Notes under the pieces: model-generated
The model's input: the letters and a program-made list of their open reading frames with translations, nothing else
What the model was told of the DNA's origin: nothing
The model's database searches: none
Part shown: positions 190 through 21,416 of the stretch, piece by piece
Position numbering within the stretch: position 1 is the stretch's first letter
Layout of the letters: every line of letters starts with the position of its first letter
Position numbers and translations under genes: made by a program
Assembly: GCA_913056455.1 (NCBI GenBank)
Contig: CAJXMJ010000003.1
Location: 62,001-126,000, forward strand
Direction of reading: 5' to 3'
Source of the DNA: an uncultured Fodinibius sp.
GTDB lineage: Bacteria; Bacteroidota; Rhodothermia; Balneolales; Balneolaceae
Length of the DNA: 64,000 bases

Positions 190-555
190 TTATCCAAAAA
201 GTTTATTAAATACCTTTCGGACGAATCCACCAACTCGAATTAAAATACGTCCACCGAACTGATCGATTACAATCCGCAGTTCATGCAAGAAAAGATCCAA
301 CAGTCGCTCCTTTTCTTGGGGAGAGAGCTTTCTACCTTTTTCGCTATTGGGATTGGTGTATTGCCCGTACAGGCGAAGAATATCTTGGGCTTTTTCAAAC
401 AGAGTTCGGATTTGTAAGGATGCAGAAAGGGTAACCATTCCGAGTATAACCACGCCGATCTCAGCCAGGTTATTCGGAGCTAGCAGGCTGGTTATCCATT
501 CACGGGTGGTAAGTAGCAGGATAGTGGTAAATAAAAATGTTAAGAAAATAGTCAT
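190..555 (-). CDS. Two-TM membrane protein, last gene of late operon
   Basis: The 121-aa protein has two hydrophobic segments (about residues 2-17 and 31-50), then a charged amphipathic region and a basic C-terminus. The start codon overlaps the stop of the upstream gene as ATGA (552-555), which argues for translational coupling and fixes this start. Its size, membrane segments and position beside the M15 peptidase and two other small membrane proteins would suit a holin-like or virion-membrane protein, but I recognise no family. Transcription ends at the hairpin 136-169 just after its stop codon. Confidence 0.7.
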   Translation of the reverse strand: MTIFLTFLFTTILLLTTREWITSLLAPNNLAEIGVVILGMVTLSASLQIRTLFEKAQDILRLYGQYTNPNSEKGRKLSPQEKERLLDLFLHELRIVIDQFGGRILIRVGGFVRKVFNKLFG

Positions 556-1019
556 CGGTTGTTCGGTTTTGAGTTTTGGGTTTTATAATGGGAAATATTC
601 ATGGCTTCGACTTGGAGGTCGGAGCGGTCGTCATCAAATAAGGAGTTTCCTGGCAGCTTTTGATATTGGTTCTTCCGGATGTGGTTGAGCCACTGCCGTC
701 CCAGGGCTTTTGCCTGTTTGTTTTGTAGGCCTTCTCCCTTGCCTTCAAGTAGTTGGTCTATCCCGTTGGTTTGAGCAGAACCGGAAGAAACAGCTACCAT
801 TCCGTACAAATACCCCAGGGTTTCCAAGATGGACAGGACGATCAGTAGGGTTCCGTCAATTCCCGATGTAGAAAGCTTTCCAGTGGAGATAAGTCCAGCT
901 ATGGAAAGGCTAGCCACCCCGCTTGTTACGATTCCCTTTCCTTGGTCGGGAGTCTTACTTTTGAACAAACTAATCAAGGACGGTACTGCTTTAATGATGA
1001 TGCGTATGATCTTTGGCAT
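552..1019 (-). CDS. Small membrane protein, hypothetical
   Basis: The reading frame is open from 1139, but I start it at the internal Met at 1019 (155 aa, beginning MPKIIRIIIK). The longer version would overlap the upstream gene by 149 bases; this one overlaps by 29. The basic amphipathic N-terminus is followed by hydrophobic stretches at about residues 30-50 and 55-75 with many Gly/Ser/Ile residues, then a polar C-terminal tail. The function is unknown. It is probably a membrane component of the lysis or virion-membrane set that ends the operon. Confidence 0.6.
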   Translation of the reverse strand: MPKIIRIIIKAVPSLISLFKSKTPDQGKGIVTSGVASLSIAGLISTGKLSTSGIDGTLLIVLSILETLGYLYGMVAVSSGSAQTNGIDQLLEGKGEGLQNKQAKALGRQWLNHIRKNQYQKLPGNSLFDDDRSDLQVEAMNISHYKTQNSKPNNR

Positions 1020-1350
1020 GGGAGGTGTCTTGGGTTGAAGGGAAGGTGTTTGAGGGTGGTTTGTATGGAAGGACTTCAAATTCGATGGTTCGAATTCGCT
1101 TGTTATGGTTGTTGAAACGATCATCCGTCCGTTGGACATGCGTTTCCAAGCTTTCTTCCAATTTACTCAGGTTATTAGCGTGCACTTTGACCTTTTCATT
1201 GATGCCAATCATCAGCTGGTACCACTTCTTTATTTCAGCGGTCTGGTTGTTGATGGAATCGTAGATACCGGTCAGAAACAGGCAGATGATCGTGGTAACG
1301 ATCAGCTCCTTATACTTTTGGAAGAAGCCATCAGTTTGTGGGTTGTTCAT
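991..1350 (-). CDS. N-terminally anchored coiled-coil protein
   Basis: The 119-aa protein has one N-terminal membrane segment (about residues 16-33), then a heptad-like charged region (about 40-90) suggesting a coiled coil, and a His-rich end. The start overlaps the stop of the upstream M15 peptidase as ATGA. A single N-terminal anchor with a periplasmic coiled coil beside an endolysin-type gene resembles inner-membrane spanin subunits, but no spanin family is recognisable, so the role in lysis is inference from layout. Confidence 0.65.
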   Translation of the reverse strand: MNNPQTDGFFQKYKELIVTTIICLFLTGIYDSINNQTAEIKKWYQLMIGINEKVKVHANNLSKLEESLETHVQRTDDRFNNHNKRIRTIEFEVLPYKPPSNTFPSTQDTSHAKDHTHHH

Positions 1351-1880
1351 GGCCCGTACCTCTTGATTGCCTCATCCAGCGTGATGGATTGCTTGTTTGA
1401 TTTGCAATAAAAGTGGCCACCGGTTAGCGATTGGTAATAGTACTGGCCGTCGAGTCGGAGCCACCGGAGCGGGCGTTCGGAATGGGTGTTTCCAGACCAT
1501 CCGTCGACATGGAGGCCAATGGCAGGTACTTTGGCGCCTTCTTCAGGGGTGTATTTCCAATCAAAGTACAAGCCCACGCCCTGGAATCCCCAGGTTGTGG
1601 CCAGGAGCCAGTGCTGGAGCGCAGACGGTTGGCTAACTAGCCACTGGTTAAACAACAGCACGTCCACGGCCAACCCTTGGCCGTGGGATTTGGGATCTCC
1701 TTTGCGCCAAGCCGAGGAAATCATAGTCGGGAGGCCATGCCACTGTCGCCAGGCCAAAAAGGAGCGCAAAAATCCGATGTCCATACGGTTAATCGTTCCG
1801 GGTCCCTGGACTTCCAGTTCGGACAGTGAGAAGTGATTGCCATAGCTGTCTAAGAGGGCTGTAAAATCTTCGGTTTTCAT
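1347..1880 (-). CDS. M15-type peptidoglycan peptidase (endolysin-like)
   Basis: The 177-aa protein carries the zinc-peptidase signature of the M15/DUF882-like group: S-A-W-R (residues 56-59), then S-H-x-x-G-x-A-x-D with His66 and Asp73, and a later L-H-V-D with His124 and Asp126. These are the expected metal ligands and catalytic side chains of D,D-/L,D-peptidases that cut peptidoglycan cross-links. It has no signal peptide, so it would need a holin, membrane anchor partner or virion delivery. It lies in an operon of membrane proteins, consistent with host lysis or wall penetration at entry. Confidence 0.8.
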   Translation of the reverse strand: MKTEDFTALLDSYGNHFSLSELEVQGPGTINRMDIGFLRSFLAWRQWHGLPTMISSAWRKGDPKSHGQGLAVDVLLFNQWLVSQPSALQHWLLATTWGFQGVGLYFDWKYTPEEGAKVPAIGLHVDGWSGNTHSERPLRWLRLDGQYYYQSLTGGHFYCKSNKQSITLDEAIKRYGP

Positions 1881-1881
1881 A

Positions 1882-2154: not shown

Positions 2155-2188
2155 TGAGTACCTATTTCAGTGTTTAATTTGTAGTGAG

Positions 2189-2671
2189 TTAAAAAAGTAG
2201 TTTCCAAACCAAGAGCCCGACGGCCGTGGCACTACCGGCGACGGCGGCCTGTTTCTTGTCAACTTCCAGTCCTCCGACCTTGATCGTCCCATCCAGTATA
2301 CCTCCGCTTCCACTGGTCGATTTGTTATTTGCCGTTTTCTGAACGGTGACAGCTGCCGTGGGTTTTGGGGTAGAAGCCGGATTATTGGTTGCATTCGATG
2401 ATTGCCTAGTTGCCGGTTTCCTGGACACAGGGGTGAGCCTCTTAGGAGGTGGCACGGGATTTTTGTCGATAACCGGTCGCAGTGTTGGTAGGCTGCGCGG
2501 TCTTACGATCGGTTTAGGCAAGGGTATTCGTTTGGGTTGGATGAGGCTTCGGCTGCGCACCGTTGGGGCATGAGTGGTTGGTAGATTGCGATTAAGGATA
2601 ACGGGCCGGATACGTCCGAGTCCGTCATCCTCGTGGGAACCAGAATAGATGTAGCTAGATTCAGTGTTCAT
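2189..2671 (-). CDS. Basic proline-rich tail-anchored protein
   Basis: This 160-aa protein has a long Pro/Arg/Lys-rich low-complexity region (about residues 20-100), a Gly/Ser linker, and a C-terminal hydrophobic helix at about 143-158 ending W-K-L-L-F. The start overlaps the end of the upstream lytic transglycosylase gene by 11 bases. The charge could suit DNA or wall contact, with the tail anchoring it in a membrane. No family is recognised. Confidence 0.65.
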   Translation of the reverse strand: MNTESSYIYSGSHEDDGLGRIRPVILNRNLPTTHAPTVRSRSLIQPKRIPLPKPIVRPRSLPTLRPVIDKNPVPPPKRLTPVSRKPATRQSSNATNNPASTPKPTAAVTVQKTANNKSTSGSGGILDGTIKVGGLEVDKKQAAVAGSATAVGLLVWKLLF

Positions 2672-3227
2672 TGTTCTTTTGGGTCAGGTGGTTATAAGTG
2701 GCAAGGGTGATAAAGGCTATTGGTAGCACGTACACAGACAGGCTGGTTGCTTTGGAAAGGCCGAGTAGCTGGCCGATCTGCTGTTTTCGTTGCCGAATAT
2801 CCCGGCTGTAATCCCCGCCGGTTGTTACCGAGTCCGGTGGCAGCCCTGCGTAAATGGCGGTCCGCACCTTGTTTGGTCCAGCGTTATAGGCGGCTACGGC
2901 TCGGGTGGTATTCCCGTTGAACTGCCGGAGTAGTTTCGCCAGATACTCTGCTCCATAATCGATGTTGGCTTGGTGGTCCAGTGGGCTGTGGCGACCGGTA
3001 AACCCGGGATGATATCGCCGGTCGATCTGCATGATACCGATGCCGTTGCCCTGGTCTCCGGTGCCGTCAGCCGATAGGGCAAGACCCATGCGACTTTCCC
3101 GGGAAGCGATGGCCAGCAACAATATCAGCGAGATACCATATTGCTTTGAAGCCTGACTGAAGTAGGGCATCAGGCCGCGCAGGCGCACGTACGTAAGTTC
3201 GGTTGACAAGGAAATAGAAGAACCCAT
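2661..3227 (-). CDS. Lytic transglycosylase (SLT, goose-lysozyme fold) with C-terminal anchor
   Basis: Residues about 30-125 match the SLT family: the catalytic glutamate in S-R-E-S (Glu44), G-I-M-Q-I-D (about 64-69) and A-A-Y-N-A-G-P (about 113-119). Such enzymes cleave the MurNAc-GlcNAc bond of peptidoglycan with anhydro-sugar formation. A C-terminal membrane segment at about 163-180 is unusual for a phage endolysin and instead resembles virion-membrane enzymes. The start overlaps the stop of the fibre-like gene (TGATG at 3225-3229). Confidence 0.85.
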   Translation of the reverse strand: MGSSISLSTELTYVRLRGLMPYFSQASKQYGISLILLLAIASRESRMGLALSADGTGDQGNGIGIMQIDRRYHPGFTGRHSPLDHQANIDYGAEYLAKLLRQFNGNTTRAVAAYNAGPNKVRTAIYAGLPPDSVTTGGDYSRDIRQRKQQIGQLLGLSKATSLSVYVLPIAFITLATYNHLTQKNNEH

Positions 3228-4681
3228 CAGGCCACCATCTTTATCTTGTAGCCTACCTTGCGCATCTGCCCGGCCATAATGGTAAACTGGTCGGCTGGTG
3301 CCAGGGCTTTACGTGCAATGAGTTTAGGCAAGAAGCGGTTGGTACTATCGTCGTTCTTCGCATATAGTCCAATCTCTTTAACGGTGATATCGGTGGATCC
3401 GCGGTTTTCAAATACTCTGGACAGGTTGAAATAGGCTTCATTGTTGGCCTCATCGATGGTCACGTTATCGTCAATCATCATGCCGTGATAAAGAAGTTGT
3501 CCGTCCTCGGTGCCGTGTGTAATGCCGCCCAGGTTGTATGGGGTTTCGGGACTAGCATCGGGGGAAAGGCCGGTGTCGGTCATGGAGACGAACTTGTTGC
3601 TTTGTCCAAGTCGGAGCCCAAGCTGCCATCCTTTGTCCCCCGTCGAAGCATTGGCCTCCAGTGCACACATCGAGGTGCCACCGCCGCCGATACACATGAG
3701 CATCCGCGCCCAACCCGAATGGGTGGTTTCAACGGCTTGCCGGCGGAGCCCCTTGGCAAATTCGGCCAGGAATCCGCCGTTTGTGCCATTCAGATCGGTA
3801 TCTTGGTTAAAGTTCTCCAGCTCAAAGCGGCATTCGTAATCCAAGGTTAGGGTCTTGCTGTCTGGTAGGTTAATGGCGGATTGCAGGAGGTCCCGGGCAT
3901 GCAGGGTTGCAATTGTTTTAAGGTCATAACGGGACACGGCGATGTAGGTGACGAGTCCCATCTCACGAATCGTGATGTCCCCACCGGTGCCGTTGGTAAA
4001 GGGAGCGGAAATCGTAAAGATTGACTTTTCCTGGTCGGTAACGACGCTGGAAACCGATACGGAACCACGCGAAAGTAGCGCGTCAATGGGATTATGCAGC
4101 CCAACATCAGAAATACTCAGCGGCCTTGTGCCCGCCCCCACCGTCGGATATACTTTCCGGAAGGGCATGCAATACCGTTGGGTAGAAGCGATATTTTTAT
4201 AGGCTTTGGAGATACAGGTGGCGTCATCTTCCAGGTAGGCAGAAGGGTCGATCGTCATAGGTGCGTCTTTAAGACGGATGTAATCATTGTTGGTATGAGC
4301 ACTTTCAACTTCCCACGTGCCGTTGAGCTCTGGGACGGACTGGCATCCCCAGATATGGACCCATACGGGCTCCTCACCGTTCGGGTCTCCAGAATGGGAA
4401 CCGCTGAATACATTTCGCAGATAACTGCGATAAATTTCCAGGGCGCCATCTACGATATGAATACTGGTGATGGTGTAATCAGGGACATATTGTTCCAGCG
4501 GGGAGATGAGCCGCTCGGTTCGCCCGCCGTGCATCATCCCGTGGATATCACGTAGAAATCCGCCGATAAAGGACTCGCTGTGGAGGCGAAGCAGGTGCTT
4601 GCCGTCGATGCGAATGTTGCAGAACAGGTCCATGCCGGACTTTGGGGTGCCAATTGATAAATTGTGGTTAATCGTATCCAT
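3227..4681 (-). CDS. Spike/fibre-like structural protein
   Basis: The 484-aa beta-rich protein has no signal peptide. It contains two copies of a motif common in phage appendage proteins, D-I-T-I-R-E-M-G-L (about residue 236) and D-I-T-V-K-E-I-G-L-Y (about 428), each followed by an A-R-D/A-R-K-A-L stretch and a terminal hydrophobic strand. The repeat suggests duplicated receptor-binding or fibre-shaft domains. It is followed by the lytic transglycosylase gene and preceded by an FN3-like gene with a 2-base gap. The role as host-recognition spike is inferred from motif and position. Confidence 0.65.
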   Translation of the reverse strand: MDTINHNLSIGTPKSGMDLFCNIRIDGKHLLRLHSESFIGGFLRDIHGMMHGGRTERLISPLEQYVPDYTITSIHIVDGALEIYRSYLRNVFSGSHSGDPNGEEPVWVHIWGCQSVPELNGTWEVESAHTNNDYIRLKDAPMTIDPSAYLEDDATCISKAYKNIASTQRYCMPFRKVYPTVGAGTRPLSISDVGLHNPIDALLSRGSVSVSSVVTDQEKSIFTISAPFTNGTGGDITIREMGLVTYIAVSRYDLKTIATLHARDLLQSAINLPDSKTLTLDYECRFELENFNQDTDLNGTNGGFLAEFAKGLRRQAVETTHSGWARMLMCIGGGGTSMCALEANASTGDKGWQLGLRLGQSNKFVSMTDTGLSPDASPETPYNLGGITHGTEDGQLLYHGMMIDDNVTIDEANNEAYFNLSRVFENRGSTDITVKEIGLYAKNDDSTNRFLPKLIARKALAPADQFTIMAGQMRKVGYKIKMVA

Positions 4682-4683
4682 AG

Positions 4684-5235
4684 TTAAGAGATCGTGGTGA
4701 TTATATTGGTGTGGGCGTTTCCGGTTTCGGGGCGCTGTTCTTCCGAAATATCTGGGTCTGTTTGCAGCGAAGCTGATATCGGCCCGGAGCGAGAGATGGG
4801 GTCGTGCTTTCCAGCAGGGGTCGTAAAGGACAACTGCTGGAACTCGAATTCGGTGGTGCCGATAGGAGTAATATCAAGTCGGGCGATGCCGAATGGGGAC
4901 TCGTTGACTTTCTGTACGTCATCAGGAGTAATCACCGAATAAATGGGGGATTGTCCGATGATGTCACCAGCCGTCTTCGAGCGCACCCGGAAAAAGTGGC
5001 GGGCATCCAGGTAAGTAATCGGAAAATAAAGGGTGTGGTAGCGGACCATTTCGGAGGCCTCGCGGTGATATTCCGGAGTTGTGGCTAGGTTATCCGGATC
5101 CAGTCCCCAATCCAGCTGGGACGAGGCCTTTTGGCCGGTGGCCCATGACACCTGGATGGAACCGTCGACGAGCATGCCGCTGACCACTCGCATTTTAAAT
5201 CCTTCGCTGAACTGTTTGCCGGTGATTTCGCTCAT
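4684..5235 (-). CDS. Fibronectin-III-like structural protein
   Basis: In this 183-aa protein, residues about 15-110 read as an FN3-like beta sandwich: W-A-T-G, then D-W-G-L-D-P, then Y-H-T-L-Y-F-P-I-T-Y-L, then H-F-F-R-V-R-S-K-T and a closing strand. The rest is beta-rich with a low-complexity C-terminus. It stands between the 139-aa and 484-aa structural candidates, so it is probably part of a surface spike or its base. Start codon ATG at 5235, 4 bases after the upstream stop. Confidence 0.6.
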   Translation of the reverse strand: MSEITGKQFSEGFKMRVVSGMLVDGSIQVSWATGQKASSQLDWGLDPDNLATTPEYHREASEMVRYHTLYFPITYLDARHFFRVRSKTAGDIIGQSPIYSVITPDDVQKVNESPFGIARLDITPIGTTEFEFQQLSFTTPAGKHDPISRSGPISASLQTDPDISEEQRPETGNAHTNIITTIS

Positions 5236-5239: not shown

Positions 5240-5659
5240 CTATTGGGACCAGAAGAGTTCGGTTACGAGGGCTTTGGACGTTTCCAGCGGGCCGCTGGCT
5301 TCGTCCCAAAGGCCCATCATCCCGCCTTTGTAGATTTCTTTGAATTGGCGCTCGTCCATGTGAAGGGTTTCCCCCGGTTTTAGTTTGAAGGTGTAGTGCC
5401 GGTCGTCGATGCGACTGCTATCCAAGGCAACCATAAACTCTCCATCGCTGTTGTTATGGACGATGATCCCGAGTCGCTGGGGGTTCCCGTTGACAAGATT
5501 TATGGGGTTGACGCCCTGTTTGAGCACAACAGATATAGAGGTGCCAACGCGGTTGCCCTGGGGCATGCCCGAGGAGGGGCCTCCGCTGCGGAGTTCGTCA
5601 AGTAGGGCATCCATTTTTCCGGTGAGCTCGCAGAGGGCGTTAAGTAGCGTGTTCCACAT
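5240..5659 (-). CDS. Small beta-sandwich structural protein (spike/vertex candidate)
   Basis: The 139-aa protein has an N-terminal amphipathic helix (about residues 1-25), a Gly/Ser linker, then one beta-sandwich-like domain with alternating hydrophobic strands around N-N-S-D-G and L-K-P-G-E-T. The pattern resembles small jelly-roll-type virion proteins, but there is no sequence-level family match I can name. It follows the 260-aa capsid candidate by 3 bases. Confidence 0.6.
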   Translation of the reverse strand: MWNTLLNALCELTGKMDALLDELRSGGPSSGMPQGNRVGTSISVVLKQGVNPINLVNGNPQRLGIIVHNNSDGEFMVALDSSRIDDRHYTFKLKPGETLHMDERQFKEIYKGGMMGLWDEASGPLETSKALVTELFWSQ

Positions 5660-5662: not shown

Positions 5663-6445
5663 TTAGACCGTTAATGGATTATCAGGTTCTGTTTGACCGG
5701 CGACATAGGCCTCGCAAAGGAAACTAACGTGGGCTTGGGAAGGGCCTCTGTTCGAGGTGTACACCTGGAAGGGCACATTGGAGCCAACAATAAACGGGAC
5801 GTTGGCATAGAATTGTCCAAACTCGTCGTTGATCTGCTCCAGAAATACTTCATTGCGAATGGTCGTATTATATACCTTCAGGCTGGCCGTAATATCGCCG
5901 GGTCGATCGCTGCTCATCGCCAGCCGGCGGGCCTGCACGTCAATACTTTTGGCCTTGACGCCCATGTCACTATGTACAGCGCCCGAGGGAAGGGTAACAT
6001 GACCGTAGAGGAATCGGGGTTGCGGCATGGGAGCGGAAATCTCGCTGTAGATGGCTTGTAGCTTTGATAGCCCAAAATGGTCGTAGCCGATGATCTGGAT
6101 GTTTACTGGTTGTTCGACCGGTCCCACATTTTCGAGTTCAAATACCAGGCTGTTACTTTTTTGGATAATGAACGGAGCAAGCAGGCCTTTGGTCCCTTTG
6201 AACAGTTGGTGGACGACGGCAAGCTGCAGGTCTCGAAACAGATACAGGTCTTCATTGAGCCGTGCGGATACCAGAATGTGGTCCATATTCGGGGCATATG
6301 GCAATATGCGTTGGACGCCGAAACTCTCTCCACCCATGCCGTTCATCTTAATTTCTTTGCTGTCACCAGCGGGGATATCCACAGTTTTGGCCGGGTTGAA
6401 GGGCGTAGATTCGGTCGGGGGAATAAAATTGGTTACAATTTTCAT
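5663..6445 (-). CDS. Candidate major capsid protein (two beta-sandwich domains)
   Basis: The 260-aa protein is almost entirely beta-predicted. It appears to have two similar-sized halves (about residues 15-125 and 145-250), each with a run of alternating hydrophobic strands. Examples are I-P-A-G-D-S-K-E-I, S-L-V-F-E-L-E-N and I-Q-I-I-G-Y in the first half, and D-V-Q-A-R-R-L and V-S-F-L-C-E-A-Y-V in the second. The length is close to the smallest known double-jelly-roll capsid protein (PM2 P2, about 269 aa). It is central in the late operon next to the 206-aa candidate. The fold is my inference; no sequence family is recognised. Confidence 0.5.
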   Translation of the reverse strand: MKIVTNFIPPTESTPFNPAKTVDIPAGDSKEIKMNGMGGESFGVQRILPYAPNMDHILVSARLNEDLYLFRDLQLAVVHQLFKGTKGLLAPFIIQKSNSLVFELENVGPVEQPVNIQIIGYDHFGLSKLQAIYSEISAPMPQPRFLYGHVTLPSGAVHSDMGVKAKSIDVQARRLAMSSDRPGDITASLKVYNTTIRNEVFLEQINDEFGQFYANVPFIVGSNVPFQVYTSNRGPSQAHVSFLCEAYVAGQTEPDNPLTV

Positions 6446-6518: not shown

Positions 6519-7139
6519 TTACTTCTCAGGTTTCATTTCGGCGACGACAATGCTGGCTCGCAGGTACAGCAAGCCTTGGCTGGAGGTCACCCAGTCGTTA
6601 TCGCTTGGGAATACCGAGGCATCTTCAAAGTGAACCGACAGCGAAAGCGTTTGGTTGACGGCTAAATCGAACGGATCAGCCAGGCGGTATTCGTCTGCGG
6701 ATTTCAGAGAAGCAATGCGCTTGAATACCACGGGGGCATCGGCGGTATTGGCCGTACCCGCTACCATATGCATGCCTGTGCCAGAGAAATTGGAATGCTT
6801 GGAGATGGGGACCCGCAAGAATTCCTTGTTGTCATTGTCGGCCTGCAGGATACAGCCGGCATCTTTGAGAGAGTTTACGATCCCCCGGGCGTCAATATTG
6901 TTGGCCTCGTCATCTTCGATGAACTGCTTGGTTACCTCAAAGGAAAGGGCCAGCACGCGGCGCTTGAGCTCTCCCGGGAAGGGATTTCCGACGTAATTGT
7001 TGCGGGTAATCTTCCGGGTGGAGTTCGGAGGGAAAAAGTTAACGACAGCGCCGTTTTGCGTGACTTGTTGCGTATCGAAATAGGTTTTGATGCGCGCGCT
7101 GGCGGGTACAATTGCTTTTTTTGAAATTTGGTTGCTCAT
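6519..7139 (-). CDS. Candidate abundant virion protein (single beta-sandwich)
   Basis: The 206-aa protein has no signal peptide or membrane helix. Beta-strand-like segments are spread along the chain (N-F-F-P-P-N-S at about 35, a long strand L-A-L-S-F-E at about 67, L-S-L-S-V-H-F-E near 170, and L-L-Y-L-R-A-S-I-V-V-A near the end), consistent with one jelly-roll-like domain. The gene is the only one in the operon followed at once by a strong terminator hairpin, which suggests high expression. It is either the main or the second capsid subunit. Confidence 0.55.
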   Translation of the reverse strand: MSNQISKKAIVPASARIKTYFDTQQVTQNGAVVNFFPPNSTRKITRNNYVGNPFPGELKRRVLALSFEVTKQFIEDDEANNIDARGIVNSLKDAGCILQADNDNKEFLRVPISKHSNFSGTGMHMVAGTANTADAPVVFKRIASLKSADEYRLADPFDLAVNQTLSLSVHFEDASVFPSDNDWVTSSQGLLYLRASIVVAEMKPEK

Positions 7140-7238: not shown

Positions 7239-7682
7239 TTACACTTCTACCGTGTCCTCAAACACTGTTTCTATTTGAGAAACATGGCCGGTTTCCTTCG
7301 GTAGAGGAACGGGAGGCGCAGGTTGTGGGGATAGGTTGTCTTCGTCCCACAGGTATTCGCTGCCTTCCATCAGGCCTTGGGAGGGCGTCCAGTCGGGCAT
7401 GACGAACTTGATCAGTTCCATCACGCCTTGCACGCCCAGCCCCATGGCCAAGCCGCGGAGGTGCGGGTTTTTGGTGAACATGGTAAAGACCATGCCTAAA
7501 GTGAGCGGAAGACCGACGCGTGCGGCCTGTTGGACCGTGGCAGAAGTTCCGCCAAGGATTGCAGGGACGGCCAGCCCGTTGAGCTGCGCACCAATCGCCT
7601 GGCCACCCACAATGTATCCGGCAGTGATCAGCTGTTGCTTGAATTCGCCGACAGCTTTTTCCGTTGTTAGTTTTTTTGCCAT
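7239..7682 (-). CDS. Small membrane protein between polyvalent and capsid genes
   Basis: I start at the Met at 7682 (147 aa, MAKKLTTEK...). The frame stays open to 7805, but those 41 extra codons overlap the upstream gene and look unlike protein. Two hydrophobic Gly/Ala-rich segments (about residues 19-45 and 50-65, perhaps also 72-95) precede a Pro/acidic C-terminal tail. It could be a virion-membrane protein. No family recognised. Confidence 0.65.
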   Translation of the reverse strand: MAKKLTTEKAVGEFKQQLITAGYIVGGQAIGAQLNGLAVPAILGGTSATVQQAARVGLPLTLGMVFTMFTKNPHLRGLAMGLGVQGVMELIKFVMPDWTPSQGLMEGSEYLWDEDNLSPQPAPPVPLPKETGHVSQIETVFEDTVEV

Positions 7683-7779
7683 AGTTGTGCGTTTAGGGGT
7701 TGTTGGGTTTTTGATTACATCCAAGTGTGTTGGATTTTTAGCAAATATTCGTTGGGTCATAGGATTGTTGGATAAGGGG

Positions 7780-15051: not shown

Positions 15052-16269
15052 TTAGCTAATAATTTTTTCTAGGAAGGCGTCAAGTTTAGCCTGACTTTTT
15101 TGGGCGGCCTGGATATCTATTTCCGGTTCGGTTTGTTTTGGAGGTGCCGGCTTTTTGGCAGGCGTGGAAGATTTGGTGGTGGATTTTTTGGGCTTCGCCT
15201 TCGGTTGGGGCTTTTTGGGGGCCGGTTGTTGCTGTTGGTTCGCAAATGCTCGCTCCTGTCGCTTGTATTCCCTGGCGCCGAGTACCACTTTCGCGTGGTC
15301 CTGTTTGAAAATCCGGATTTCCAGCTCTCCATATTTGCTGACCAGCTTTTTCCAACACGCCAGCACGCCGCCCGCCGAACCTTCAGTGCAAATCTGGTAT
15401 TCCAGGTGTCCGTCCAGCAGCAGGTCCATGAGGTACCGCTTTTTGGGGTAATCGGCGGTGTACCGGATCGACAGATGCGCGTTTTCGGATTCTCCGGAAT
15501 GCTTTTGGGCGTAGCAGGACATCTTGCTTCCGAACATCGAATTGATGCGTTTCCAGGAGCGTATTTTGTGAAGCTTGTCCAATTCTTTAAGGGTAATTTT
15601 AAACGGGGTATCCACGGGGTTCTCGCGGTCGACTGGGGTCTTTTGTTTCGCTGGCTTAGTTTTGGGGGAAATGTTTCGCTCGGCAGCCGTAAATGGGACG
15701 GCAATGGCCGTCAGCTCCCGGTAGCGGTTCTTTTCGGTTTCGGCTCCGCCTTCTTTGGTAACTTTGATTTCGATGTCGCATTCGTGGGCGATGCTGGTAT
15801 TGCCTTTGTACTGCCCGTCCTTGGTGGCGTGGGAGACCATGACAAACATGATCCCGTTTTCGCGGCACCACTGGGCCAGCTCGACGGTTTCCTTGGCGTT
15901 GGCATCAATCACGGAAATCGAGTCGAGGATGCAGGCGAAGGACCGGTTTTTAAGCAGGATTTCTTTGAGCGCCTGAATGGATTTCCATTTGGTAAAATTT
16001 AGATTAGAATGTGTGGCCTGTAGTCGCTTCACGCGATCGACCAGGGTTTTTCCGAAATGCTCTTCGGCGGGGATATACTCGATGCGTCCGTGCTCGGCCA
16101 GCGCATCGGCCAGCCCCAGACTCATGGTAGACTTTCCGGCTCCTTTTTCACCCCAGATAAAGATAACTGCGTTCTTTTCCGGCTCGCCGACCAGCTTTCC
16201 GTACGGAGGGGCGATGGTAATACCTTGTATGTTGAGCTTCGAAAGCTCGCGTGCACTCATTGATTCCAT
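15052..16269 (-). CDS. RecA/RadA-like ATPase with basic C-terminal tail
   Basis: I choose the ATG at 16269 (405 aa) because it follows the upstream stop by one base; an in-frame Met at 16305 would overlap it. The ATPase core has Walker A G-E-K-G-A-G-K-S-T (about residues 40-48), a Walker B-like A-C-I-L-D-S-I-S-V-I-D (about 112-122) and a RecA-type M-V-S-H-A segment (about 144-148). A Lys/Pro/Ala-rich tail runs about 330-375, ending in a short helix. It resembles RadA/DnaB-type recombination ATPases more than HerA/FtsK packaging motors. Its place just upstream of the polyvalent gene suggests a DNA-handling or packaging role. Confidence 0.75.
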   Translation of the reverse strand: MESMSARELSKLNIQGITIAPPYGKLVGEPEKNAVIFIWGEKGAGKSTMSLGLADALAEHGRIEYIPAEEHFGKTLVDRVKRLQATHSNLNFTKWKSIQALKEILLKNRSFACILDSISVIDANAKETVELAQWCRENGIMFVMVSHATKDGQYKGNTSIAHECDIEIKVTKEGGAETEKNRYRELTAIAVPFTAAERNISPKTKPAKQKTPVDRENPVDTPFKITLKELDKLHKIRSWKRINSMFGSKMSCYAQKHSGESENAHLSIRYTADYPKKRYLMDLLLDGHLEYQICTEGSAGGVLACWKKLVSKYGELEIRIFKQDHAKVVLGAREYKRQERAFANQQQQPAPKKPQPKAKPKKSTTKSSTPAKKPAPPKQTEPEIDIQAAQKSQAKLDAFLEKIIS

Positions 16270-16270
16270 A

Positions 16271-16594
16271 TTATTTAGGGGTCGCTTTTTTGATTGCAAT
16301 TCCAATTCCGATGATGGCTACGGCTCCCAGGAGCCAAAGGCCAGAGGGCGTAGATGGTTTTTGCTGTTGTGGTTGTAGGGCGTTGTTATCAATCCCGAGT
16401 CGGCGGATCAGCATCTGGTCGGCTACGCCGGTTGGGGGCATGCCCAACGCTTGCTGGGCCTGTATGACAGCCGACTCGGTTTCCGAACCAAATATTCCGT
16501 CCATCCCATAGTCGGGAAGGGGGATGCCCATTGCTAAGAGGGCGGATTGCAGATGCATGACCTGGGGTCCGTTGCTACCTTTGCGTAAGCTCAT
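16271..16594 (-). CDS. Peptidoglycan-binding protein with C-terminal anchor
   Basis: In this 107-aa protein, residues about 1-70 match the PG_binding_1 fold: the repeated pattern V-x-x-L-Q-x-x-L followed by D-G-I-F-G-x-x-T-x-x-A-V-x-x-x-Q. A Pro/Gln linker and one membrane helix (about 84-101) with basic end K-K-A-T-P-K follow. There is no enzyme domain, so it probably tethers a membrane to the cell wall. The start overlaps the upstream stop as ATGA (16591-16594). Confidence 0.85.
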   Translation of the reverse strand: MSLRKGSNGPQVMHLQSALLAMGIPLPDYGMDGIFGSETESAVIQAQQALGMPPTGVADQMLIRRLGIDNNALQPQQQKPSTPSGLWLLGAVAIIGIGIAIKKATPK

Positions 16595-16998
16595 GGTTGT
16601 TTGCGTTGTCGGTTATACAATGTTACTCCCGCTATTCCGAGCAGGATGCCGGCGCTGACATATCCCGCGCCCCTTAAGGCCGATGAGGATGACTGGACGA
16701 TGCTGTCCTCTAGGCCCATAAGTTCACCTGCTGCCTGTAGGTCCACATGCTCGAAGTATTCGTTAATTTCTTGCTTGTACTTGCCAAAAGTAGCTCGGAA
16801 GGCTTCCTTGTCGGCGGTGAGGTTGGCCAGTAGAATAGCCGTTGTAGCGGCGTTGCCTTTCTTGCCGGCCAGCGCCCGGTTGGCAATGCTCATTGCTTTG
16901 CGGACGGCATTGCGGCTGGTGCGAGACAAGTAGCTTTGCAGCCCACCCATTCCGTCGTCCACCACCTGGTAGTCCTGACCTTCTATAAGTTCTTGCAT
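16591..16998 (-). CDS. Tail-anchored helical protein, hypothetical
   Basis: The start is taken at the ATG at 16998 (135 aa, MQELIEGQDY...), two bases after the upstream stop; the longer open frame to 17112 is rejected because it would overlap that gene. A mainly helical, charged N-terminal part is followed by a C-terminal membrane segment (about 108-127) and the basic end N-R-Q-R-K-Q-P. It belongs to the set of C-terminally anchored proteins of this operon. Function unknown. Confidence 0.7.
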   Translation of the reverse strand: MQELIEGQDYQVVDDGMGGLQSYLSRTSRNAVRKAMSIANRALAGKKGNAATTAILLANLTADKEAFRATFGKYKQEINEYFEHVDLQAAGELMGLEDSIVQSSSSALRGAGYVSAGILLGIAGVTLYNRQRKQP

Positions 16999-17000
16999 GA

Positions 17001-17675
17001 TCAGGCCTCTCGGGGTTTGGCGTTCTTGGTGGCAAGGTCCGTAACGCTGTCTCGAATGCCGGGCATAAGAGGAGCCAGGAAATACACGCCCGCCCCGATG
17101 CCTGCGAGCCAAAGCGCCTTGGTGAGCGTACTGTTGACGCCGCTTAATGCACCACTGGGGTCGGGGAGGTCAATCTGATACCACGGCTCAGTGGGCGGGG
17201 CATATACGCCACTTTGCTGGCCTTCGTCGATATCTAAATCGAGCGTCATTACATTAGACGTAGCCAGTGGGTTAGCTTGTGCTATATTCGTTTCGGTAAC
17301 GTTGCTGTAGTGGAGCTCAAAGATCACGGGGTGGTGACGGTCCGGAACAAACGACCGGTCAAACACGAGACGGGCCTGCCCGCGACATCCTTCCCACATG
17401 CTGGTAATTATGCGGGATATCGCAAGCACGTTCCGGGTTTGCGGATCGAGGGCGGCGACCACGACGTCCGGACACACGACCATCAGAAATGAATTCCAAA
17501 ACGTGCGGTAGATATCCGCCTCGACATCTACGGAAAAGGGGACGCCGGTTTTAGGACGACCGCGCTGGGGGTAACGTCCGATAATGCGGAGCTCACCGGC
17601 CTCGGAGCTTATGATATTGCCAGAGATCCCCGCCTCGCCTAATCCGTTGGCAGTGGTAAACGTGGAGTTGCTCAT
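17001..17675 (-). CDS. Beta-rich protein with C-terminal membrane segment
   Basis: The 224-aa protein starts at the ATG at 17675, which overlaps the upstream stop as ATGA. A longer in-frame start at 17759 would overlap that gene by 85 bases and is less likely. Residues about 15-160 look like a beta sandwich (alternating strands including P-F-S-V-D-V-E-A-D-I and V-I-F-E-L-H-Y-S), followed by a Pro-rich linker and one membrane helix (about 186-204). An anchored beta domain would suit a vertex, spike-base or envelope structural protein. No known family recognised. Confidence 0.65.
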   Translation of the reverse strand: MSNSTFTTANGLGEAGISGNIISSEAGELRIIGRYPQRGRPKTGVPFSVDVEADIYRTFWNSFLMVVCPDVVVAALDPQTRNVLAISRIITSMWEGCRGQARLVFDRSFVPDRHHPVIFELHYSNVTETNIAQANPLATSNVMTLDLDIDEGQQSGVYAPPTEPWYQIDLPDPSGALSGVNSTLTKALWLAGIGAGVYFLAPLMPGIRDSVTDLATKNAKPREA

Positions 17676-17995
17676 CAGTGTTTTCGTCTGGTTACTATTC
17701 GAACGGTGAGATAGCCAAGGCCAATCAAGCCAAGGGTTCCTTTGTGGCGTTGAAACCACTCGGTGAGGGTGGGCGGATTCTGCTCATCAGCCAGGCGTTG
17801 GCAAAGCGACATGGATTGGGCGTCTTTTATGGTCGCTCCCTCGGCCACTTGTTGCACCTCGACCGTCGGTTGGAAATAGATTCTGTCGTCGGGATTGCCC
17901 GGCGTACGCTGGGGAGCATTCGGAACCTGTCCGTCAGTAAAATGGGAGGTCCCCACGGGATGGGGCGCGAGCGTGTCGGTGGAGGGAGTGATCAT
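17675..17995 (-). CDS. Tail-anchored small protein, hypothetical
   Basis: This 106-aa protein has a polar, Pro-rich N-terminal part, an amphipathic stretch, then a single C-terminal hydrophobic helix (about 84-101) ending in T-R-R-K-H. The start follows the previous stop by one base. It has the same architecture as several neighbours; function unknown. Confidence 0.65.
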   Translation of the reverse strand: MITPSTDTLAPHPVGTSHFTDGQVPNAPQRTPGNPDDRIYFQPTVEVQQVAEGATIKDAQSMSLCQRLADEQNPPTLTEWFQRHKGTLGLIGLGYLTVRIVTRRKH

Positions 17996-17996: not shown

Positions 17997-18368
17997 TTAT
18001 TTGTTGTTCTTTTTAAGCATAGAGAACATGAGGGTCCCGCCGGCGATTGCTACCCCGCCAATAATGAGTGCGGTGGTCAAATTGCCAGAGGAGGCCTTGG
18101 CCCGTTGGGCTTGCATCAGCGCCATTTGTTGCTGGGGGGTGAGCCTGCCGGATCCAGAGCCGCTTTTACCGCCATTAATGATCCCATCGACGGTGACAGC
18201 GCTGTCGGCGGCGGTCGTCAAAAAGCTGGACAGGTCGTTGAGGATGCTGCCAAACTTGGTTTTCTTGGAGTCGGTCGGCTGGGGTGGCAGCCCGCTGGTG
18301 GAAAAACTGGGGGTAAACGGAACGGTTGTCTGAAGGAAATCGAGATTGTCGTAGCTGCTGCTATTCAT
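17997..18368 (-). CDS. Tail-anchored small protein, hypothetical
   Basis: The start is taken at the ATG at 18368 (123 aa, MNSSSYDNLD...), because the 33 codons before it would overlap the upstream gene by 86 bases. A Ser/Thr/Gly-rich N-terminal part and a Gln-rich short helix are followed by a C-terminal glycine-rich membrane helix (about 98-116) and the end L-K-K-N-N-K. Likely a membrane component of the particle. Confidence 0.65.
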   Translation of the reverse strand: MNSSSYDNLDFLQTTVPFTPSFSTSGLPPQPTDSKKTKFGSILNDLSSFLTTAADSAVTVDGIINGGKSGSGSGRLTPQQQMALMQAQRAKASSGNLTTALIIGGVAIAGGTLMFSMLKKNNK

Positions 18369-18381
18369 AGGAGAGGGGAGG

Positions 18382-18810
18382 TTAGGTCGATTTGGTGTTG
18401 GACTTCTTCTTTTTAGCAATAATGGTAATGGCTGCGCCAAGAATGGCAACACCTCCAATGGCGGCACCGGCGATCATGGCCGTCGAGGCCGTGTGCTGTT
18501 TTTCGGCGGTGTCGGTGACGTTGTGTTGGAGGGCCGTCATAAGCTGCTGTTTCTCCTGCTCGATTTTTTTCTTTTCGGCAAGCTTCCGACCGTGAGCCTT
18601 GCAAAGGGCCTGGGACTTCTCCCGTTTCCGCCGGCAGCGTTTAAGAGCACCAAACATCTTGCCCTTACAGCTCTGGTTGGCATACCGGCAGGGATCATCT
18701 TGCTCCCAGCCTTGTAGTCCGTTTGGGATGGGATGGTCGCCGGTCATGACCCCTTGGGGGTCATCCTCGTCGGCAATAATAGCTACGGTGGTTAGGTACG
18801 TGCTACTCAT
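18382..18810 (-). CDS. Tail-anchored protein with Cys/Lys-rich core
   Basis: The 142-aa protein has an acidic N-terminus and a central basic segment with four cysteines (residues about 42-70, including C-R-Y-A-N-Q-S-C and C-R-R-K-R). A charged helix and a Gly/Ala/Ile-rich membrane helix (about 111-131) follow, ending in K-K-K-K-S-N-T-K. Function unknown; its architecture is shared with other proteins in the operon. Confidence 0.65.
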   Translation of the reverse strand: MSSTYLTTVAIIADEDDPQGVMTGDHPIPNGLQGWEQDDPCRYANQSCKGKMFGALKRCRRKREKSQALCKAHGRKLAEKKKIEQEKQQLMTALQHNVTDTAEKQHTASTAMIAGAAIGGVAILGAAITIIAKKKKSNTKST

Positions 18811-18819
18811 AAACAGTGA

Positions 18820-19848
18820 TTAGTGATTAAAGGCCCAGTAGCTAATCCCGCCAAGCGTAAGAAGTCCAGTCGAGAGTCCGCCATACAAAAGCCATTGTTT
18901 CTGTTTCGTTTTCTGCCTGCTGGCAATGAACGAGCTACCTAGATCTCCGAATCGGTTCAGGTGATCAATGGCAGGTTGTCCAAATTCTTGGATGATTTGC
19001 GCGTATCGCTGGAGGATTTCGTTGTTTTTCTGGGAGAAGGAAATAACGTCCGATCGTACTCCTTGGGCCATCAGATAATCCCTCCACTGCCCGCGGGCGA
19101 TGCGCTCGTCTTTATCTTTCGCGCCAAACCATTTGGAGAACATGCCTTTCATGGTTACCCCCGTTTGCAGGGCCGTCGTGGCCGCGGCGGTAAGCGTAAT
19201 CGGGTCGATGCCCAGTCCTTTCGGCAAGGCGTTCGGGACGTGCCGGGATTTCGTGATCAGCGACTCGTCAAACGCAAAGCCAGGATATTTGGCGACTGTG
19301 GTATCAAAGGATTTCCATCCCTGAGGGGATCGGTACACCGCGTAGATATGATCATAGGTGCGTCCGTTGCGACTTACAATGCGAAAACCGGTTTGGATAC
19401 CCAGGCTTTGTAGCAGGCAGGCCCCGAGGATGGCGTGGTCGTCACAATCACCGGCTTTTTGGCGGATAGTCACGTCCGGCGATTGAATACGTTCGACATT
19501 CCAGGGGTCGGCTGCGTAATTGATATTACGAACCATCCACGTGTAAATAGCTTCCGCTACCTGCTGGGTATCGCGCAGATTCGGCAGGCCGGTGTTGGCA
19601 TTGCGGGGGATACGGTTGGTTATACGGAGCGCTAAATTGCGAAGCTGTTCCCGTCCGGTGTAGGTGGTCACCAGCTCGGAGGCAACCATTAGTACCTGGT
19701 CGATGCCCGGATACCGCTGGCGGCTGCTGGTAATAAGGGCGGTAGCATCTCCGGTTGGGGAGCCTGCTACCGCCTGTGTGCTCGTCGCCGTACCGTTGGT
19801 CGGGACTGCGTTGCGGGAAATCGATATGTCAGAGTAGGCGCTGCTCAA
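18820..19848 (-). CDS. Transglutaminase-like cysteine protein with C-terminal anchor
   Basis: The 342-aa protein contains a transglutaminase-like (papain-fold) core with the expected triad: Cys135 in G-D-C-D-D-H-A, His167 in Y-D-H-I-Y-A-V-Y and Asp182 in F-D-T-T. A C-terminal membrane helix lies at about 318-336. The start codon is TTG (19846-19848), overlapping the stop of a 35-codon gene as TTGA, which supports both. Members of this fold act as peptidases or cross-linking enzymes. The operon context suggests cell-wall or particle processing; substrate unknown. Confidence 0.75.
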   Translation of the reverse strand: MSSAYSDISISRNAVPTNGTATSTQAVAGSPTGDATALITSSRQRYPGIDQVLMVASELVTTYTGREQLRNLALRITNRIPRNANTGLPNLRDTQQVAEAIYTWMVRNINYAADPWNVERIQSPDVTIRQKAGDCDDHAILGACLLQSLGIQTGFRIVSRNGRTYDHIYAVYRSPQGWKSFDTTVAKYPGFAFDESLITKSRHVPNALPKGLGIDPITLTAAATTALQTGVTMKGMFSKWFGAKDKDERIARGQWRDYLMAQGVRSDVISFSQKNNEILQRYAQIIQEFGQPAIDHLNRFGDLGSSFIASRQKTKQKQWLLYGGLSTGLLTLGGISYWAFNH

Positions 19849-19952
19849 TATGAGGAGGATACGTTTGGAATGAAGATCTGCATGCCGTGCGTTGGGGTGG
19901 TTCGGATGATCTCGCCAAGGCCGGTCACGGGCTCTTGGTTGACAGTTGGCAT
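19845..19952 (-). CDS. 35-aa mini-protein coupled to transglutaminase-like gene
   Basis: A 36-codon frame runs from ATG (19952) to TGA (19845). The protein starts M-P-T-V-N-Q-E-P and ends N-V-S-S-S-Y, with no membrane helix. It fills the only gap between the 138-aa and 342-aa genes, and its TGA overlaps the downstream TTG start. Such packing is typical of real small phage genes, or it may act as a leader that sets translation of the TTG-start gene. Confidence 0.5.
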   Translation of the reverse strand: MPTVNQEPVTGLGEIIRTTPTHGMQIFIPNVSSSY

Positions 19953-19964
19953 AACGAATGGGGG

Positions 19965-20381
19965 TTATTTCGGTTGAAATGGGGCTTGTCGGCTGGCCTT
20001 GACCAGGGTTTGTAGTTGGACAATGACATCAGTCATCAGTCGCCGCACTTGGGGGCTTACTTGCGTGCCGCTAAGACTGAGCAGCTGTTGACAAGCGAAA
20101 GGGGCAGGGATATAGGATAGCGTAGTTGCGTATTGCCCTAATCCATCCACAAGGGGATATACGGTTTTTGCAATGCGTTCGGCTCCTATATCCCTGCTTA
20201 TCGCTTCCATAGAAAGTATTTTGGCCATTCCGACCCAGTCGCCGGTTGTAAGCGGCCGACCACGGGATTGCAGCAGGGTCAGCTGTGATGTAATGCGTTT
20301 TGCGTACACCGAAAAATCGCTGGACCGGTCGCCCAGGTATTCGAGGGCCATATTTAAAAGGGTAAGATGTCCGGAGTTCAT
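19965..20381 (-). CDS. Helical hypothetical protein, late operon
   Basis: This 138-aa protein is mainly helix-predicted, with no signal peptide or clear membrane helix. Hydrophobic positions are spread through residues about 85-125. It lies 12 bases after the coiled-coil gene. No family recognised; perhaps a scaffold or particle component, given its position near the promoter end of the operon. Confidence 0.6.
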   Translation of the reverse strand: MNSGHLTLLNMALEYLGDRSSDFSVYAKRITSQLTLLQSRGRPLTTGDWVGMAKILSMEAISRDIGAERIAKTVYPLVDGLGQYATTLSYIPAPFACQQLLSLSGTQVSPQVRRLMTDVIVQLQTLVKASRQAPFQPK

Positions 20382-20393
20382 AGGTGGTGGCGG

Positions 20394-21416
20394 TTACGGG
20401 GTTGGGGTGGGGTCCGAGTGGCCGTTGCGGTGAGGGGGCCTGAACTGGCCATTAAGTGTGGCCTTCCCGCCAGAGATAGTCGGTTTTGCTGAATTGGGAT
20501 CGTTGTTGGCGGGAAGGTGCCGAGAAGTTTCCTCCTCGGCACCTTTGGATGGTTCGGCTTTGTTGTTGGGGAGAGGTTCTTGTTGGGGTAAAGGGGAAGA
20601 TTGTGGAGCTTGCATGGACTGGGTCAAGGACACTTTCAATGTCTCGGCCTGCTCGGGGGTCAGTTGGGGGTGGCCGTTTCCGGGCCGCTGGGCAAATAGC
20701 CCTGAGATTACCGTGAAAAACATAGGAGCATTTTCTTCCAGCATATCCAGCATGCGGCTTCCGGCGTCACGGCCGCCGGCTCGCTGCTCCATCTCCATGC
20801 GAAATTTTATCTTTTCGAGCTCGCCGAGCTCTTTTTCCAGGTCCTTGAGATCGGTTCGGTGACGTTCTTTGAGGCGATCAATGTCGTTGCGGTGGGTCTC
20901 CCGGAGTTCGGAAAGTTCTTTCTGGTGGGTAAGCAGGGTGGCCGTTTTGTCTTCGGCCAGCTCGCGTTTTAGGTTCATGATTTCGTCGACCTGCTGGCGA
21001 ATCTTGCGGTCCCCGTCGTGGAGCTCGCCTTCGAGGCGAAGGATGCGGTTGTGGTAAAAGCTGTTGTCGGGTTTTTCAGCGGACGTTGTGCCAGCGGCTG
21101 ACGACATAAGGTCATCGCTGTCGGACTCTACCGGTTCAATCCGAAAACCTATTTGAATATCACCGTCCATTCCGGTGTGTAAGGTATAAAGGCCGGGCTG
21201 CAAGCGAAACATCGCTTTGACAATATTGAACGGCTGGCGAAAATTGTAGGGAAGCTCTTTGCTGACCTCTTTTAGGTTGTCGGTCATCCCGGTGATGTGC
21301 CCAAAGATCGATATTCCCTGCTCCATCTCTTGGAGGGTTTGGGCGTAATCGCGCTCGTCGGCATCGATTTGAACGTCACTTAGCGGTTCAGGTATGGGGT
21401 CAGCATTCGTTAGCAT
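20394..21416 (-). CDS. Coiled-coil protein, first gene of late operon
   Basis: The 340-aa protein has an N-terminal globular part (residues about 20-115, beta-containing), a long charged coiled coil at about 125-220 rich in Leu/Glu/Lys/Arg heptads, then a Pro/Gln/Asn-rich low-complexity C-terminus. As the first gene after the 551-base control region it could be a scaffold or an early regulator. A coiled coil with disordered tail would suit an assembly scaffold, but this is inference. Confidence 0.65.
   Translation of the reverse strand: MLTNADPIPEPLSDVQIDADERDYAQTLQEMEQGISIFGHITGMTDNLKEVSKELPYNFRQPFNIVKAMFRLQPGLYTLHTGMDGDIQIGFRIEPVESDSDDLMSSAAGTTSAEKPDNSFYHNRILRLEGELHDGDRKIRQQVDEIMNLKRELAEDKTATLLTHQKELSELRETHRNDIDRLKERHRTDLKDLEKELGELEKIKFRMEMEQRAGGRDAGSRMLDMLEENAPMFFTVISGLFAQRPGNGHPQLTPEQAETLKVSLTQSMQAPQSSPLPQQEPLPNNKAEPSKGAEEETSRHLPANNDPNSAKPTISGGKATLNGQFRPPHRNGHSDPTPTP

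Follow-up and report, generated by a model that had tools for sequence, protein, structure and literature searches.

The window analysed here, a stretch of 64,000 nucleotides from an uncultured, salt-loving Fodinibius sp. of the family Balneolaceae (contig CAJXMJ010000003.1, positions 62,001 to 126,000), contains on its minus strand an intact virion-gene operon (190-21416) in which no tailed-phage genes were recognized. We counted 24 open reading frames (ORFs) in the operon, all at the places given in a preliminary description that had been made from the DNA letters without database searches, and all core ORFs are open in the window. The guanine-cytosine content of the operon is about 0.51-0.56, as against 0.31-0.47 in the sequence to its right. 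Pfam matches confirm the wall-cutting enzymes, the RecA-like ATPase and the giant polyvalent protein named in that description: the operon encodes a lytic transglycosylase (PF01464), a peptidoglycan-binding protein (PF01471), a transglutaminase-like protein, a KaiC/RecA-like ATPase and a protein of 2421 amino acids (aa) with RelA/SpoT-like and SNF2/helicase domains. The reading of the operon as more than a chance assembly rests on the recurrence of its 206-aa gene and on low ratios of non-synonymous to synonymous substitution (dN/dS).

The lack of a recognizable terminase, portal, HK97-type capsid and tail set, also part of that description, held under profile searches. The terminase family PF03237 had 0 matches across the whole genome of the window (6 of 14 control genomes were positive), and a PHROGs scan of 20 of the 31 core proteins recovered lytic-domain, ATPase, primase, ParB-like and integrase families (some of the lytic-domain families being filed under tail or head) and no terminase, portal or capsid family. 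A tailed prophage, for which Caudoviricetes would call for a large terminase, a portal and an HK97 capsid, was rejected on these two results. Two smaller claims needed adjustment. By the Kyte-Doolittle scale, nine of the 24 ORFs have one hydrophobic segment, C-terminal in five of those nine, so that 'about ten' tail-anchored proteins was too high. Of the terminators placed at 136-169, a hairpin (143-148/163-168) is readable in the sequence; a hairpin scan with loops of 3-8 nucleotides listed only a different one (21-43), because the loop of the former has 14 nucleotides.

The closest known relative of the operon is an isolated phage. When the 206-aa protein was searched against 50,697 translated phage records, the sole match was gp45 of Salisaeta icosahedral phage 1 (SSIP-1, present among the records under two accessions), with an E value of 2e-11. 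Blastp and phmmer comparisons of the 24 ORFs with the full set of 57 SSIP-1 proteins, together with hhalign comparisons of twelve families with twenty-five of these proteins (reversed-sequence controls at most 9.8), tie twelve ORFs to eleven SSIP-1 positions, all collinear. From the 5' end of the operon, the 340-aa and 138-aa proteins correspond to gp33 (split here), 342 aa to gp34, 252 aa to gp35, 173 aa to gp36, the 417-aa ATPase to gp40, the 2421-aa giant protein to gp43 (C-terminal domain), 188 aa (7239) to gp44, 206 aa to gp45/gp46, 260 aa to gp47, 139 aa to gp48 and the 188-aa transglycosylase (2661) to gp54. Such a collinear virion gene block is what an informal group around SSIP-1, itself unclassified, calls for; the kinship is close to certain, and the earlier statement that no protein belonged to a recognized virus is not supported. 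The 484-, 183-, 177-, 195-, 119-, 156- and 142-aa proteins have no SSIP-1 partner (best hhalign value 4.9, within the range of the reversed controls). Two papers describe SSIP-1 as membrane-containing, with a circular genome of 44 kb, a triangulation number (T) of 49 and a diameter of about 100 nm (PMC6260650, PMC6356626); a table in the former enters its capsid as 'single jelly roll?', and a passage in the latter gives it hardly any similarity to GenBank sequences. The proposal of a tailless, internal-membrane provirus is thereby supported, its nearest relative being an isolated phage of such morphology. The features of the window are as follows, 'islands' being the seven other islands of the window's genus:

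1-189: inner end of the left cargo arm and 3' terminator region of the operon (hairpin 143-148/163-168); homology to a virion-gene-free region in another genome ends at 140
190-555, minus: 121-aa protein, one hydrophobic segment, last gene of the operon; islands 7/7
552-1139, minus: 195-aa protein, one hydrophobic segment; islands 7/7
991-1350, minus: 119-aa protein, hydrophobic segment near the N-terminus; found in G007, G022, G025 and G043
1347-1880, minus: 177-aa protein, possibly wall-cutting, presumably resembling M15-type peptidases; islands 7/7, no Pfam or PHROG match
1882-2154, minus: 90-aa tail-anchored protein (Kyte-Doolittle)
2189-2671, minus: 160-aa proline-rich tail-anchored protein; islands 7/7
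2661-3227, minus: 188-aa lytic transglycosylase, SSIP-1 gp54 homologue (blastp E 2.9e-36; PF01464)
3227-4681, minus: 484-aa candidate vertex spike or receptor-binding protein, suggested by mosaic divergence
4684-5235, minus: 183-aa protein that covaries with the 484-aa protein (identity pattern between islands)
5240-5659, minus: 139-aa homologue of SSIP-1 structural gp48 (hhalign probability 92.4, best reversed control 2.5)
5663-6445, minus: 260-aa homologue of SSIP-1 structural gp47 (hhalign 98.9; blastp 1.6e-7)
6519-7139, minus: 206-aa candidate major capsid protein, SSIP-1 gp45/gp46 homologue (sequence searches and model)
7239-7805, minus: 188-aa homologue of SSIP-1 structural gp44 (blastp 5.9e-9)
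7780-15045, minus: 2421-aa giant polyvalent protein with gp43-like position and C-terminal domain (blastp 2.2e-11 over 134 columns; Pfam)
15052-16305, minus: 417-aa RecA/KaiC-like ATPase, gp40 homologue (blastp 2.3e-30; phrog_6891 2.6e-27)
16271-16594, minus: 107-aa peptidoglycan-binding, tail-anchored protein (PF01471)
16591-17112, minus: 173-aa SSIP-1 gp36 homologue (hhalign 95.5)
17001-17759, minus: 252-aa SSIP-1 gp35 homologue (hhalign 95.1; phmmer 1.6e-9)
17675-17995, minus: 106-aa operon protein (match in G017, 46% over 94 columns)
17997-18467, minus: 156-aa tail-anchored protein (Kyte-Doolittle)
18382-18810, minus: 142-aa tail-anchored protein; islands 6/7
18820-19848, minus: 342-aa transglutaminase-like protein, homologue of SSIP-1 structural gp34 (blastp 2.7e-31; PF01841)
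19965-20381, minus: 138-aa homologue of the C-terminal part of SSIP-1 gp33 (blastp 1.6e-7)
20394-21416, minus: 340-aa coiled-coil-like homologue of the N-terminal part of SSIP-1 gp33 (hhalign 93.9)
21417-32271: middle cargo slot with hydrolase, methyltransferase, Fic protein and BpuJI-type restriction-modification set
32272-32802, minus: 176-aa protein of the replication/integration module, weakly ParB-like (phrog_8071 E 0.0055); islands 7/7
32803-33090, minus: 95-aa conserved protein; islands 5/7
33364-35499, minus: 711-aa primase/helicase-like replication protein (weak PHROG match, E 0.0011)
35723-36022, minus: 99-aa conserved protein; islands 7/7
36219-36629, plus: 136-aa helix-turn-helix regulator, candidate repressor (PF13443 over, PF12844 just under cut-off); islands 7/7
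36645-36926, minus: 93-aa protein, weak helix-turn-helix, candidate excision factor; islands 7/7
37020-38234, minus: tyrosine integrase, sole PF00589 match of the 88.7-kb island (4.3e-33)
38369-38446, minus: tRNA-Arg(ACG) gene (38372-38446) with right attachment core (38369-38417)

The candidate capsid set of the operon consists of one gp45/46-type protein (206 aa) and the gp47 homologue (260 aa), which is possibly a second capsid protein. For the former, AlphaFold2 run on 14 sequences returned a jelly-roll-like model of moderate confidence (mean predicted local distance difference test (pLDDT) score 69, predicted template-modelling score 0.65), on which the protein would be a candidate major capsid protein with a single jelly roll. 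Its best match in BFVD is a 211-aa protein (template-modelling score 0.70, E 7e-11), most likely SSIP-1 gp46 by length and identity, and the top rows of VIA-align included PRD1 P3 (the first, Z 8.3), SPV1 (8.2) and SH1 (7.5), a result consistent with a capsid jelly roll and short of proof. In the structural check proposed in the preliminary description, Foldseek of this model against PDB gave nothing at E<=0.001, with mixed top rows. A PDB profile search with the capsid alignment had an unrelated protein as its best hit (E 0.074), and neither capsid candidate had a PHROG match. Next to these genes, the 484-aa protein is 91% identical to its counterparts in the islands G018a and G014 and 70-71% to those of five other islands of the genus, and the 183-aa protein is 80% identical to that of G014 and 66-69% to those of five other islands. 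This pattern suggests gene swapping of the kind expected of a receptor-binding module, with the 484-aa protein as a candidate vertex spike.

The SSIP-1 record (genome 43.8 kb) marks gp34, gp40, gp43, gp44 and gp45-48, among others, as structural. By analogy with gp40 and gp43, the ATPase and the giant protein are therefore probably virion components here too. In a distant lineage (G041 and contig C4 of G013), single proteins of 1455 and 1409 aa combine the gp40-type ATPase with the C-terminal domain of gp43, which suggests that the two act together, perhaps in DNA loading. When packaging ATPases of the FtsK-HerA/A32 type were looked for, AAA_25 (2.1e-5) and Pox_A32 (0.0031) both scored under the cut-off; the 417-aa ATPase may be regarded as a candidate packaging motor. 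The operon differs from its SSIP-1 counterpart in having one gp45/46-type protein where SSIP-1 has two, in its putative spike positions, occupied by the 484- and 183-aa proteins, and in its linkage to a 711-aa primase/helicase-like protein; none of these last three proteins had a match in SSIP-1.

The operon is the virion module of a larger element and not the whole of it. A second conserved module (32272-38234) lies to its right, and its tyrosine integrase abuts a tRNA-Arg(ACG) gene, in which the attachment (att) core of 49 bp comprises 46 bp of the tRNA 3' end and 3 bp beyond. An identical left copy lies 50 kb outside the window (-50210 to -50162; G000:C3:11790-11838), so that the att-bounded element measures 88.7 kb rather than 21 kb. 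The only core-like sequence between both copies is a complete tRNA-Arg(TCG), 78% similar (window -35829; G000:C3:26171-26245). The order is left att, large cargo arm, virion operon, second cargo slot, replication/integration module and tRNA-Arg. Missing genes to the left of the window, which the preliminary description had allowed for, were rejected: the left flank is non-viral cargo (a metal-efflux cluster and other host-type genes), and the genes for replication and integration are those on the right. Also rejected was a separate virus bounded on the left by an att of its own near 140-190, no repeat being found (word size 7, E 0.5), nor any direct repeat of at least 16 bp joining both places.

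The same architecture recurs in the window's genus, whose eight islands (69.3, 73.1, 75.8, 87.1, 88.7, 90.1, 94.9 and 96.5 kb) all contain the 21-kb virion module and a replication/integration module of 6-7 kb. Cargo makes up 61-71% of each, in a left slot of 26-57 kb and a middle slot of 11-19 kb. Six islands of the ACG type have ends of 47-49 bp that copy the tRNA-Arg 3' end and are 100% identical. The sequence beyond the left att matches the 3' flank of an island-free tRNA-Arg(ACG) in G013 over 62-123 bp including the core (82-98%), so that this gene, in a genome with no other full ACG-type core, appears to be the expected empty site. G010 was dropped as an empty site, a 9-kb element (G010:C24:10794-19817) with its own integrase and without virion genes being seated at the same tRNA-Arg. 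Full-length tRNA-Arg(TCG) genes also occur in cargo arms (window -35829 and three in G018b), some sharing a terminator.

For the comparison of the two slots, ORFs of at least 150 aa gave 78 middle-slot and 227 left-slot proteins. The scanned subsets, restricted to proteins lying inside one locus, comprised 67 from the middle slot with a length of 200 aa or more and, from five of the eight islands, 70 from the left slot with 250 aa or more. At E<=1e-10, 254 PADLOC models were matched by the former and 9 by the latter. Among the matches listed, the middle slot had AbiEi (5 members), AbiEii (4) and type IIG restriction enzymes (3), and the left slot had, by Pfam, P-type ATPases (4), outer-membrane efflux proteins (3), CusB/HlyD (3) and RND pumps (2). 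The cargo is split, with metal resistance and other host functions in the left slot and anti-phage defence in the middle slot, where the window has its BpuJI-type restriction set and Fic protein. PF00437 (T2SSE) is also present in the five-island left-slot set. By eye, the left arm at 1.23-1.26 Mb of G018:C1 has a T2SSE ATPase with pilus or type II secretion-like neighbours and Rhs-like repeat proteins.

Beyond the genus, 20 of the 92 Balneolaceae genomes examined have the 206-aa capsid gene; among 395 genomes drawn from the phylum, 16 were positive, 15 in Balneolaceae and one in another family of the same order. Thirteen islands were delimited in Balneolaceae, of about 38-96 kb, each with exactly one PF00589 integrase beside a tRNA or att end. 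Islands of other genera lie between tRNA-Met copies (G007, 79.8 kb; G025, 86.2 kb; G023, 86.0 kb; the compact G043, 46.0 kb). Their two ends are formed by the integrase and the helicase, respectively, so that cargo and virion genes lie between these two. A distant lineage with a capsid protein about 30% identical is integrated at tRNA-Pro in G013 (C4, about 38-41 kb). Two ends of the tRNA-Met type are complete tRNA-Met genes of their own (G007:C1:104920-104994 and G043:C7:69772-69846), 92% identical to the left copy of G007. G019:C11:87555-89363 holds a second 711-aa-type helicase gene, perhaps of a further lineage, and no second capsid protein was detected in that genome. Of the G011 and G017 C20 contigs, the comparison covered a part.

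Movement of whole islands is best seen in G007 and G025, which belong to different genera: of the G007 island, 79,789 bp long, 65,134 bp fall into shared blocks that are 90% identical or more (mean 94.9%), no such block was found outside the islands, and a host gene, our single yardstick of host divergence, is 76% identical. The match starts exactly at the left tRNA-Met with 1.5 kb at 100%, running into the integrase gene, continues through cargo blocks of 15.7, 6.8 and 15.5 kb (96.8, 93.6 and 98.3%) and ends with a virion/helicase block of 25.6 kb at 91.7% that reaches the right tRNA-Met. The shared cargo, named by eye, looks like copper or other metal efflux (RND pumps, TolC-type protein, P-type ATPase). 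Cargo, integrase and virion genes have therefore travelled together at least once. G007 and G022, also of different genera, share the core at 96.9% over 25.6 kb (host gene 74%). That the whole island is the mobile unit is well supported by the comparison of G007 with G025 for the tRNA-Met type and likely for the island of the window; virions may have been the vehicle.

Capsid and helicase genes co-occur, and the core is under purifying selection. The 711-aa gene (E<=1e-20) was found in 18 genomes, all within the 20 capsid-positive ones; of the two others, G027 is a draft assembly in about 290 contigs, and the element of G041 has a weaker match. For 16 of the 31 core genes compared with four islands, 61 of 64 dN/dS values were usable (synonymous sites being often near saturation); they range from 0.03 to 0.40 and lie below 0.15 in 49 of the 61. 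These values, well below 1, together with the open core ORFs, the 100% identical att copies of the six ACG-type islands and a related island recently common to two genera, make it very unlikely that we are looking at a dead, decaying provirus overgrown by cargo, as a cargo share of 61-71% might suggest. Strong purifying selection and large host-type cargo would also be expected of a domesticated particle, resembling a gene transfer agent or a phage-derived weapon, maintained by host selection. We regard this as extremely improbable: the elements have their own integrase, att sites and linked primase/helicase-like gene, and they are patchily distributed, with up to three copies per genome, and shared as islands across genera, whereas gene transfer agents are host-fixed and not self-mobile.

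Taken together, our results make it likely that a temperate virus related to SSIP-1 is integrated here, that the 21-kb operon is its virion module and that the complete element is the att-bounded cargo island. A further proposition, for which the evidence is evenly balanced, is that in islands of up to about 96 kb a tailless membrane virus has turned into a delivery vehicle, with a conserved core and two cargo slots, that moves whole between genera. In this scenario, integrase and host factors would cut the island out at the tRNA core in circular form, and the 711-aa protein would replicate the circle. A tailless icosahedral shell, built from the single-jelly-roll 206-aa protein and perhaps the 260-aa protein, would enclose a membrane vesicle bearing the tail-anchored proteins; the 417-aa ATPase would load the DNA, the giant polyvalent protein would ride in the particle like gp43 in SSIP-1, and the transglycosylase and peptidoglycan-binding proteins would open the wall. 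In a new host, the DNA would integrate into the tRNA gene, bringing metal-efflux and other host-function cargo along with anti-phage defence.

Several observations weigh against this interpretation. Particle production, the membrane, packaging and excision are predicted from genes. VIA-align Z values of about 8 are equalled by unrelated non-viral jelly rolls, the AlphaFold model of the 260-aa protein, also proposed for structural checking, is poor (mean pLDDT 47), and pattern scans of IMG/VR with the 206-aa family found no relative. The island shared by G007 and G025 could also have moved by a non-virion route. By volume scaling, 69-96 kb at the DNA density of SSIP-1 needs about T=66-83 as against T=49, and island lengths vary; for 88.7 kb the same scaling gives about T=78 and a diameter of about 127 nm. 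If DNA were packed as densely as in a virus of the HHIV-2 kind (30 kb, T=28), the capacity of a T=49 shell would be about 70 kb. Packaging of 69-96 kb would need particles larger than those of SSIP-1 or an unusual loading mode. The remaining points also fit a different history, in which a compact provirus of SSIP-1 size (about 26-46 kb) fused at a tRNA hot spot to an older integrative island and virions move the virus part only. Compact forms exist (G043 at 46 kb, G013 C4 at about 38-41 kb) beside the 43.8 kb of SSIP-1. The two TCG-type islands have ends of 49-50 bp that are only 88% identical, and the cargo arms hold internal tRNA-Arg(TCG) copies: one in the island of the window, a 48-bp fragment (79%) in G018a and three genes in G018b, 86-91% identical to the right one, which therefore leave its size uncertain at 96.5 kb, or 43.8 kb from the innermost. 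In G011, a metal-efflux cluster homologous to the left arm of the window (G011:C27:2867-11084) lies beside the same att core (13165); no capsid or helicase gene was detected there, and homology to the window stops at 140, the start of the virion operon. A 46.8-kb defence-type island without virion genes (G018:C1:1304711-1351508), whose large genes appear to be BREX-like and SbcCD-like, is seated at the same tRNA-Arg with an integrase 72% identical. G007 and G023 have only 24.4 of 79.8 kb in common at at least 90%, mainly core, so that cargo also turns over.

The G011 cluster and the virion-free island of G018 fit either cargo exchange and hitchhiking or a fusion of separate islands; islands that lack virion genes and use the same tRNA through a sister integrase may be hitchhikers. 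We nevertheless consider the fusion improbable, given that the inner edge of the left arm lacks an att copy in seven of eight islands, that all 13 islands have one integrase each, that the integrase and helicase ends of the tRNA-Met type enclose both cargo and virion genes, and that G007 and G025 have cargo (94-100%), integrase (98%) and core (92%) in common across genera.

The cargo island of the window can be set beside several known systems. It represents a provirus relative of a phage type that had so far stood alone, and where SSIP-1 has a 43.8-kb genome, its relatives in the window's genus are integrated at tRNA genes in islands of 69-96 kb, of which cargo makes up 61-71%. Tycheposons, phage satellites and integrative conjugative elements likewise have tRNA-targeting integrases and large variable cargo; the element described here differs in having its own virion operon. 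PF19044 (TraG-type ATPase), the sole conjugation family searched, was over the cut-off in none of 10 genomes and sub-threshold once (G019), as against 4 of 14 controls. With Sphaerolipoviridae and relatives (SH1, HHIV-2, P23-77), alongside which SSIP-1 is grouped structurally in a review (PMC5332951), the element would share the internal membrane and single-jelly-roll logic, here predicted from genes; it differs in that its capsid candidates lack PHROG and PDB-profile matches and that the fold similarity is weak. Tailless PM2-like Vibrio proviruses are reported to measure 12.1-15.1 kb and to have an accessory-gene hot spot (PMC11630473). They are likewise integrated, whereas their capsid is of the double-jelly-roll type and the islands described here have another capsid family and tens of kb of cargo. 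Open-literature searches found no paper on SSIP-1-like proviruses, which says little about subscription journals. Relatives of the SSIP-1 virion genes are now known in 20 of 92 genomes of one bacterial family. Should virions prove to carry entire islands, tailless membrane viruses would take their place beside conjugative elements and tailed phages as vehicles for large sets of adaptive genes, and the capsid-size problem would become directly testable.

In the middle slot of the window, the Fic-domain gene (26065-27549) has a 94% identical counterpart in the G018a island and is flanked by three copies of a 21-bp AT-rich repeat (25999-26019, 26030-26050 and 27576-27596).

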